The position numbers and the translations under genes are program-made. Below the pieces are notes generated by a model. It was given only the letters and a program-made list of their open reading frames with translations. It searched no databases and was not told the origin of the DNA. A stretch of 32,314 bases of DNA from Devosia equisanguinis (GTDB taxonomy: Bacteria > Pseudomonadota > Alphaproteobacteria > Rhizobiales > Hyphomicrobiaceae): assembly GCA_945903565.1 (NCBI GenBank), contig CAMDPA010000005.1:1-32314 (forward strand). The letters are read 5' to 3'. How positions within the stretch are numbered: position 1 is the first letter of the stretch; the number at the start of each line of letters is the position of its first letter. Shown here piece after piece: positions 30,842 through 32,013 of this stretch.

Positions 30842-30886
30842 GCAGGCTGGGTCAAGCAAGCGCAGCGCCGCGCGCCCCAGCAAACG
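30842..30886 (+). repeat. REP-like hairpin, variant GCTGGG/CCCAGC
   Basis: The head GCAGGCTGGGTCAAGC resembles GTAGGTTGGGTCAAGC at 31606. The stem is GCTGGG (30846-30851) with CCCAGC (30876-30881). It begins three bases after the stop of the TctC-like gene, so it may also act at the transcript's 3' end. Compared with the copy at 31610 the second pair of the stem has changed from T-A to C-G. Confidence 0.65.
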
Positions 30887-31023
30887 ACGCTGATATCATA
30901 ATTGCGAATTGTCGAGCTTCGCGCAAACGGCGCTCAGCGCCGACCTGCGAACGCATGCATGTATGCGCTTGCCTCGGGCGCGGCCAAGGCGGCTAGCGAC
31001 GCGATGGGCCATATTGAGACATT

Positions 31024-31276
31024 GGCCCCGGAGGGGCCATGGGCTGTAGCCATGGGTGCAGCGCAGCGAAACCCGTGGGAGTTGTCGGTTTCCATTCGTT
31101 GCCGCCCCGGAGGGGCGGAGGAATTGATCGCGACCGTCAAATCGAAACTCATGCGCCCCGTCTCGCCGAAGGCGAGCCTTCGGCTCGACGGGGCGATACT
31201 GAAACGAGGGTGATTTGGGGCTACGGGTTCCGCTGCGCTCCACCCGTAGCTACAGTCCACTGGCCCCTTCGGGGCC
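31024..31276. repeat. Composite inverted repeat with nested palindromes
   Basis: The left arm (31024-about 31080: GGCCCCGGAGGGGCC, then CTGTAG, GGGTGCAGCGCAGCGAAACCCG) recurs inverted on the right (about 31217-31276), reading in reverse complement GGCCCCGAAGGGGCC, CTGTAG, GGGTGGAGCGCAGCGGAACCCG. Between them are GCCCC-GGA-GGGGC (31102-31114) and a nearly perfect 40-base palindrome (31155-31194). On the right, GCTACGGGT/ACCCGTAGC (31220-31228 with 31242-31250) is a perfect 9-bp stem. Confidence 0.75.
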
Positions 31277-31447
31277 GAGGTCTCCGATAAGGTGTCGTGC
31301 AAATAAATGGGGCAGCTCCTATTAACGTCGCAACTCGATAAATGCAGCAAACAGGAGTTGCTATCGTTTCGAGCAACTTCTGCGCTGCATCGAATTGCCC
31401 TGCAGGCACGTCGGCGCCGCCAGGTGCTCACCCCTCATTTTTCGTCA

Positions 31448-31489
31448 TTCCGGCCCCGGATCGACGTCCGGGGTAAACTGCGGCCGGAA
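31448..31489. repeat. Nested palindrome of the 'GTCATTCCGG' type
   Basis: The outer stem TTCCGGCC (31448-31455) pairs with GGCCGGAA (31482-31489); the inner CCCCGG (31454-31459) pairs with CCGGGG (31468-31473). The text around it, CGTCATTCCGGCCC and CGGAACCCAGG, recalls a common intergenic repeat of alphaproteobacteria. Confidence 0.7.
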
Positions 31490-31604
31490 CCCAGGTCACG
31501 TCGACGGGATGGTGGGGGAGACGAAGGCGCGGTGTACTTTCTGACGCGCTCGCTGCGCCATCGCTTGCGATCTCGATTTCGTGGGTGGGCTGGAGCGCTT
31601 CCCA

Positions 31605-31696
31605 CGTAGGTTGGGTCAAGCGTTTCAGCGCGACCCAACATCCACGGCATGCCAGGAAATGTTGGGTCGCGGCCAGTGGCCTTGACCCAACCTACG
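31605..31696. repeat. GTAG-headed REP pair (BIME-like), TTGGGTC type
   Basis: Perfect 16-bp outer arms CGTAGGTTGGGTCAAG (31605-31620) and CTTGACCCAACCTACG (31681-31696). Two hairpins with the perfect stem GTTGGGTC/GACCCAAC lie inside: 31610-31617 with 31632-31639, and 31661-31668 with 31684-31691. GTAG (31606-31609) and CTAC (31692-31695) flank them. The layout equals that at 16821-16905 although the stem sequence differs. Confidence 0.88.
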
Positions 31697-31744
31697 GCGC
31701 CGGTTGTACGTTTGGGATTCACATCAAGCGGAGTGCGCTCTAGG

Positions 31745-31762
31745 TCCCGCCCTTCGGCGGGA
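31745..31762. repeat. Short perfect hairpin
   Basis: TCCCGCC-CTTC-GGCGGGA: seven pairs around a four-base loop. No T-run follows, so it is unlikely to be a terminator; its style is that of a REP palindrome. Confidence 0.75.
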
Positions 31763-31822
31763 TGACGGCAGCGGGTGGGGGCTGCACGTATTCCAATTTT
31801 TACGCATAAAAAGACGGGTGGT

Positions 31823-31880
31823 CTGGCGGGTGTCCCGCCAGTGGGGTCTGGGGCCAGCCCCAGTCGCGCCCTCGGCGCGA
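31823..31880. repeat. Row of three perfect hairpins
   Basis: CTGGCGGG-TGT-CCCGCCAG (31823-31841), CTGGGG-CCAG-CCCCAG (31848-31863) and TCGCGCC-CTC-GGCGCGA (31864-31880) follow one another within 58 bases. All stems are perfect. Confidence 0.8.
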
Positions 31881-31981
31881 ATTCATCGATGCGTGCGCAA
31901 CGCTGACGACCGTCACCGAACGTCGTAGGTCAGGTCGAGGTGCGAGACCCCGCATGCAATGGTAAACGCATCGCGGAGAAT

Positions 31982-32013
31982 GTCGGGTCGCGCAAAAGCT
32001 TGACCCGACCGAC
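31982..32013 (-). repeat. REP-like hairpin, variant GTCGGGTC/GACCCGAC
   Basis: The stem GTCGGGTC (31982-31989) pairs perfectly with GACCCGAC (32002-32009). Read on the minus strand it is GTCGGTCGGGTCAAGC, matching GTAGGTTGGGTCAAGC at 31606 except for a changed head (GTCG) and one stem position altered on both arms (T-A to C-G). Confidence 0.7.

Follow-up and report, generated by a model that had tools for sequence, protein, structure and literature searches.

The question of three hairpins near a contig end resolves into a genome-wide one. The genome of Devosia equisanguinis clearly contains about 200 small palindromes of the mobile type (REPs, mostly arranged as head-out REPINs) that are scattered between its genes. 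We consider it very probable that they are REPs of the GTAG superfamily, mostly REPINs, that is, non-autonomous single-stranded DNA elements dispersed in trans by RAYT (TnpA-REP) transposases of the HUH/Y1 type. The genome (G000) is a MAG of 577 contigs and 5.27 Mb (94% complete, 4.6% contamination), and the window, i.e., the whole stretch of 32,314 nucleotides that was analysed, is its contig C5. The pattern GGNNGGGTCAAG matches 201 times in this genome (97 + 104), compared to 16 matches (5 + 11) of the reversed pattern. With a covariance model made from 42 distinct copies, at least 149 hits were obtained (E-values down to 5e-11); this number is a floor because just 150 candidates were scored. 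The further copies that the original prediction had asked to be sought, by a covariance-model search of the genome, are thus present in quantity. Structure statistics are drawn from about 100 located copies of the 201. The layout of the REP is GTAGG-YY-GGGTC, a two-base mismatch AA/GC, a variable loop closed by GC, and GACCC-RR-C, and the GTAG tag, noticed earlier on the cleanest window copy, stands at the foot of the hairpin in 103 of 122 matches genome-wide. The main class carries the AA-GC mismatch as a bulge (TCAAG...GCGA, with A13A14 opposite G32C33), while in a sibling class the inner C-G pair is swapped to T-A and GA/GA takes the place of AA/GC. Conservation continues inward from the tag, but outward it reaches just one base beyond GTAG (C in 77 of 87) before it ends abruptly, and the boundary of the element was therefore placed at this edge. 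Neighbouring copies less than 250 bp apart are oriented head-out in 37 of 38 cases, at distances of 75-165 bp, and in simple pairs both members mostly belong to one stem class (28 of 31: 17 CT/CT, 10 TT/TT, 1 TC/TC). The unit is the head-out pair, the REPIN. In an unbiased sample of 432 kb (20 contig stretches of 20 kb and the window), 85.4% of which is coding according to a simple codon-usage gene caller, 24 of 25 REPs lie outside genes.

Within the window the family occupies positions 30,842-32,013 with the following features:

30842-30882, plus strand: damaged singlet REP of the CT class with a GCAG tag and a long loop
31606-31640, plus strand: REP of the TT class with a GTAG tag, left member of a REPIN (covariance-model E 1.1e-10)
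31660-31695, minus strand: REP of the TT class with a GTAG tag, right member of the same REPIN (covariance-model E 3.9e-9)
31606-31695, unstranded: complete REPIN, a head-out REP pair with spacer, bounded by GTAG...CTAC (DNA fold)
31925-31954, plus strand: decayed REP of the TCGAG class, GTAGGTCAGGTCGAGGTGCGAGACCCCGCA, partner of the REP at 31981-32013
31981-32013, minus strand: REP of the TC class with a GTCG tag, right member of a hetero-REPIN (covariance-model E 2.7e-9)

In the window, the sequence GGNNGGGTCAAGC is present at exactly three places (30845 and 31609 on the plus strand, 31998-32010 on the minus strand), as had been observed, and 100 dinucleotide-preserving shuffles contained it 0.04 times on average and never reached three copies. 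The stems likewise read as described before, with GCTGGG/CCCAGC, GTTGGG/CCCAAC (twice) and GTCGGG/CCCGAC. A fourth copy with one mismatch at 31680-31692 (minus strand) forms the other arm of the middle pair, and the two GTTGGG/CCCAAC copies represent one facing pair. This middle REPIN is a 90-nt palindrome (DNA fold z = -8.4 versus shuffles) with outer arms of 16 nt, at 31605-31620 and 31681-31696, that are perfectly complementary. The third locus is a decayed hetero-REPIN (31925-32013), of which the partner at 31925-31954 had been missed; the same TCGAG/TCAAG arrangement is found intact on contigs C63 and C6. The first REP begins 3 bp past the stop of a gene (ORF end 30838) for a receptor of the TctC/Bug type, a label that rests on a Pfam match below the curated cut-off of that protein family. 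This REP is damaged, with GCAG in place of GTAG and GCCCC in place of GACCC, which breaks the inner T-A pair. The short loop ascribed to it does not hold either, as a long insert lies there, and its fold (z = -0.5) is no better than that of shuffles. We include this copy in the family because of its sequence relatives, the closest being C143:4143, and not because of its own fold.

Three copies cannot by themselves show covariation, whereas the genome-wide set does. The variable dinucleotides are exactly complementary in 95 of 101 parsed hairpins, so that the earlier notion of a REP family with paired stem changes is upheld, and neither of the outcomes named in advance as refuting it, a lack of further copies or arm changes without a partner, came about. 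These 95 hairpins fall into the stem classes CT/AG (56), TT/AA (30, of which 25 TCAAG and 5 TTGAG) and TC/GA (9). In an alignment of 42 distinct sequences, hand-picked from copies parsed for REP architecture, 98.8% of the cells pair compared to a shuffled mean of 92.5% (none of 500 shuffles as high), and 34 cells are changed on both sides compared to 10.1 (again none of 500), although related copies share changes and the shuffle statistic ignores this kinship. Pairing falls to 23-40% if the partner is shifted by 1-3 columns. Double changes occur at 4 pair positions, a number that 56 of the 500 shuffles reached and that is not itself unusual; the evidence therefore lies in the matching of the changes and not in their number. 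An independent case of a paired change is provided by a site on contig C210, where the present genome has GTAGGTTGGG...CCCAAC and the orthologous REP of the congener G010 has GTAGGCTGGG...CCCAG, with both arms altered (T-A/C-G).

The original prediction had proposed to look for a RAYT gene flanked by the same hairpins. Such a gene exists in the congener G011, in which a 183-aa RAYT on contig C69, in the gap between two genes, sits between inverted copies of exactly the TCAAG REP (GTAGGCTGGGTCAAGCG...AGCGCGACCCAGC). In the present genome the sibling REP is found in this position instead: an intact RAYT on contig C14, 58% identical to that of G011, is flanked by inverted TTGAG REPs (GTAGGTTGGGTTGAGC...GCGAAACCCAAC), which have T-A for C-G at one pair, a compensated change, and GA/GA for AA/GC at the mismatch. 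A second RAYT at C334:4584-5030 (L091) has an internal TGA stop and a different flanking palindrome. A RAYT with TCAAG-type REPs on its flanks was not found in this assembly (94% complete), only those on C14 and C334, which bears on the driver of the family in its own genome and not on the membership of its copies among REPs. In G012, G070 and G096 the REPs on either side of the RAYT belong to a further GTAGG type. A third type of similar RAYTs, at C334:4584-5030 (L091) and at G012:C203:9213-9659 (L090), is flanked by CCGTAGGGCGCAATAGC in both cases and is intact in G012.

The proteins are RAYTs. Four of them (G000, G011, G012) match NF047646, "REP-associated tyrosine transposase", with E-values of at most 3e-51 (best about 1e-54), and the structure of E. 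coli TnpA-REP (4ER8) is matched by the C14 protein with an E-value of 1e-35. The HUH motif (H72-x-H74) and Y144, which aligns with 4ER8 chain position 115, are invariant over seven RAYT proteins. A PF01797 search of the genome gave no match because its RAYTs score 19-22 bits, under the cut-off of 23 bits; they were recovered by a RAYT query and by NF047646. Scanning a collection of genome contigs with a single RAYT protein likewise yielded no match, and a scan with a RAYT alignment yielded at least 541 relatives across phyla. By a crude test, 27 of 80 RAYT loci taken from these matches have GTAGG..GGG hairpins on both sides. The earlier reference to GTAG recognition by RAYTs in enterobacteria is supported as to the tag and the RAYT association; the system is not limited to enterobacteria.

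The four sister species differ about tenfold in the copy number of the motif (201, 125, 46 and 22), with the 125 matches of G011 counted at 70% completeness. Raised TCAAG counts were also observed in other genera (e.g., G072, G098 and G095), which may reflect other repeats. At a DNA identity of about 76-85% around the elements, REPINs are shared at orthologous sites with G011 (on C38) and with G012 (on C80), and some copies are therefore inherited and old. The site orthologous to C80 has no recognisable REP in G010, and the C62 site retains decayed remnants there. Copy number thus rose or fell by lineage. No RAYT close to the G011 type was found in G010, the genome with the fewest copies, whose RAYTs comprise one of another type (43% identical) and a weak match that is interrupted by a stop. 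Its low copy number is consistent with decay after loss of the cognate transposase, in a comparison of four genomes.

Several other explanations have to be considered. Chance inverted repeats in GC-rich intergenic DNA, as which the 30842 copy with its poor fold could pass if taken alone, retain practically no probability and are refuted by the genome counts of pattern and reversed pattern and by the E-values of the covariance model. The original prediction favoured local spread, i.e., a single hairpin that inserted near 31 kb, multiplied there and diverged under structural constraint. Five REP copies within 1.2 kb speak for it, but the three window loci fall into three different genome-wide stem classes, their nearest relatives all lie on other contigs (C143, C36 and C63), and no unique spacer or loop sequence is common to the window copies that were compared. 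We therefore reject local spread as highly improbable. It is also conceivable, if unlikely, that the hairpins serve in RNA, as 3'-UTR stabilisers or terminators behind genes, and are maintained by selection on RNA pairing and not by transposase recognition. In the 432 kb sample, the 18 REPs with both neighbours known show a downstream bias, with 8 in '--' gaps, 7 in convergent '+-' gaps, 3 in '++' gaps and none between divergent genes ('-+'); since the two members of a pair do not count as independent, the independent placement events are somewhat fewer than these counts. This bias and the position of the 30842 copy directly behind a stop codon would suit an RNA role. However, avoidance of promoters is expected of any tolerated insertion, and an RNA role explains neither the tag and the head-out arrangement nor the sharp CGTAG edge and the RAYT association, and is at odds with the wide spread of copy number among congeners. 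A secondary RNA role for some copies may exist.

Dispersal by RAYTs, which we prefer, allows different drivers of the TCAAG family in the present genome. The sibling RAYT on C14 may drive it by cross-recognition, so that no cognate RAYT would be missing or lost, a possibility we regard as real but not as the favoured one. The C14 gene is the only intact RAYT found in this genome, the TCAAG and TTGAG REPs differ by just one compensated pair and the bulge, and E. coli TnpA-REP processes some foreign bulged REPs (PMC8266576). Against this, the flanks of C14 are of the rarer TTGAG type (34 pattern hits compared to 201), RAYT genes of this family each carry their own REP types, and a second RAYT may be unassembled, because flanking repeats often break assemblies. 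Somewhat more doubtful is a broader scenario, in which the approximately 185 copies above background persist without a RAYT of their own and are either driven by a sibling RAYT whose REP has changed its bulge to GA/GA or passed on together with it, while a congener keeps the matching RAYT. If true, this would be a natural case of switching in RAYT-REP specificity, with the residue aligned to K82 of the E. coli protein differing between the classes. The RAYT loci compared at this residue are:

L079:1486-2070 and L078:1501-2052, minus strand: RAYT loci compared at the K82-aligned residue (alignments)

Among the few proteins available, the RAYT of the AA/GC type has E at this residue, that of the GA/GA type has S and that of the TTAGCGC type has T. 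In E. coli TnpA-REP, K82 is reported to contact the bulge C (PMC8266576).

For the steps of dispersal itself we rely on the analogy to E. coli, where GTAG and the unpaired bulge are the features by which the RAYT identifies a REP in single-stranded form, and where cleavage falls at a CT close by (PMC8266576). By this analogy, the tag and the bulged hairpin would be read in single-stranded DNA by the Devosia transposase, which would probably cut at a nearby CT, and the REPIN would reach other intergenic sites by being copied or moved. Because the transposase would read the hairpin, changes in the stem would survive mainly when paired. The family shares the GTAG tag and the imperfect stem with the E. 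coli group 2 REPs (y, z1, z2) and their TnpA-REP (PDB 4ER8), its TCAAG class has the conserved AA-GC mismatch bulge (PMC8266576), and the RAYTs belong to the same protein family. Unlike in E. coli, the stem letters are GGYTGGGTC / GACCCARC, the dimers point head-out and mostly combine REPs of a single stem class, and sibling classes carry GA/GA and not AA/GC.

Similar elements are known from other bacteria. Di Nocera 2013 (PMC3733652) already describes GTAG repeats, HH dimers, alternative complementary stem residues and RAYT flanking, and its GTAG-3-like families resemble the present one in their HH dimers 20-100 bp apart, their subfamilies with alternative complementary stem residues, their location downstream of genes and the non-complementary di- or trinucleotides between the stem and a GC-flanked loop. 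By this description the present family is probably GTAG-3-like. REPINs were defined in Pseudomonas fluorescens SBW25 (Bertels and Rainey 2011, PMC3116915), where they are likewise intergenic inverted REP doublets forming long hairpins, with every class tied to its own RAYT; the REP sequence of SBW25 is different, and singlets are common in the present genome. The REP of Coxiella burnetii, GTAGGTTGGGCTGAGCTTGCGAAGCCCAAC (Nunvar 2010, PMC2817692, Table 1), is nearly identical in head and architecture, but has the inner stem GGGCT/AGCCC with a GA/GA mismatch.

The family is accordingly a clear yet ordinary addition to a well-known kind of element, as the general phenomenon, including the paired stem changes, is already published. 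Its value lies in the comparison: since the four sister species differ in copy number as well as in RAYT content, growth, drift and decay of REPINs can be followed together with the transposase, and likewise the joint change of stem mismatch and RAYT.

A longer inner hairpin of the type GTCGATGCGGAGCATCGCTCCGCGATGACGCGCGA recurs in many REP loops (C12:7529, C38:5827, C73:3806 and others), as though a single loop variant had spread. At C38:12455 the present genome has a copy with such a hairpin and the G011 orthologue a copy without it. The end of contig C5 (30839-32314) is a stretch of about 1.5 kb without a gene according to the simple caller, and is packed with palindromes of several families. 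These include a second, different GTAG-tagged pair, GTAGCCATGGGTGCAGCGCAGCGAAACCCGTGG (plus strand, from 31046) and GTAGCTACGGGTGGAGCGCAGCGGAACCCGTAG (minus strand, from 31253). The related pattern GTAGCYAYGGGTG has no match in three congeners and 13 in the present genome, most of them in facing pairs about 190-215 bp across, which combine one GCCA and one GCTA head and are hetero-pairs with a paired stem change. A 20-bp inverted repeat lies at 31154-31195.
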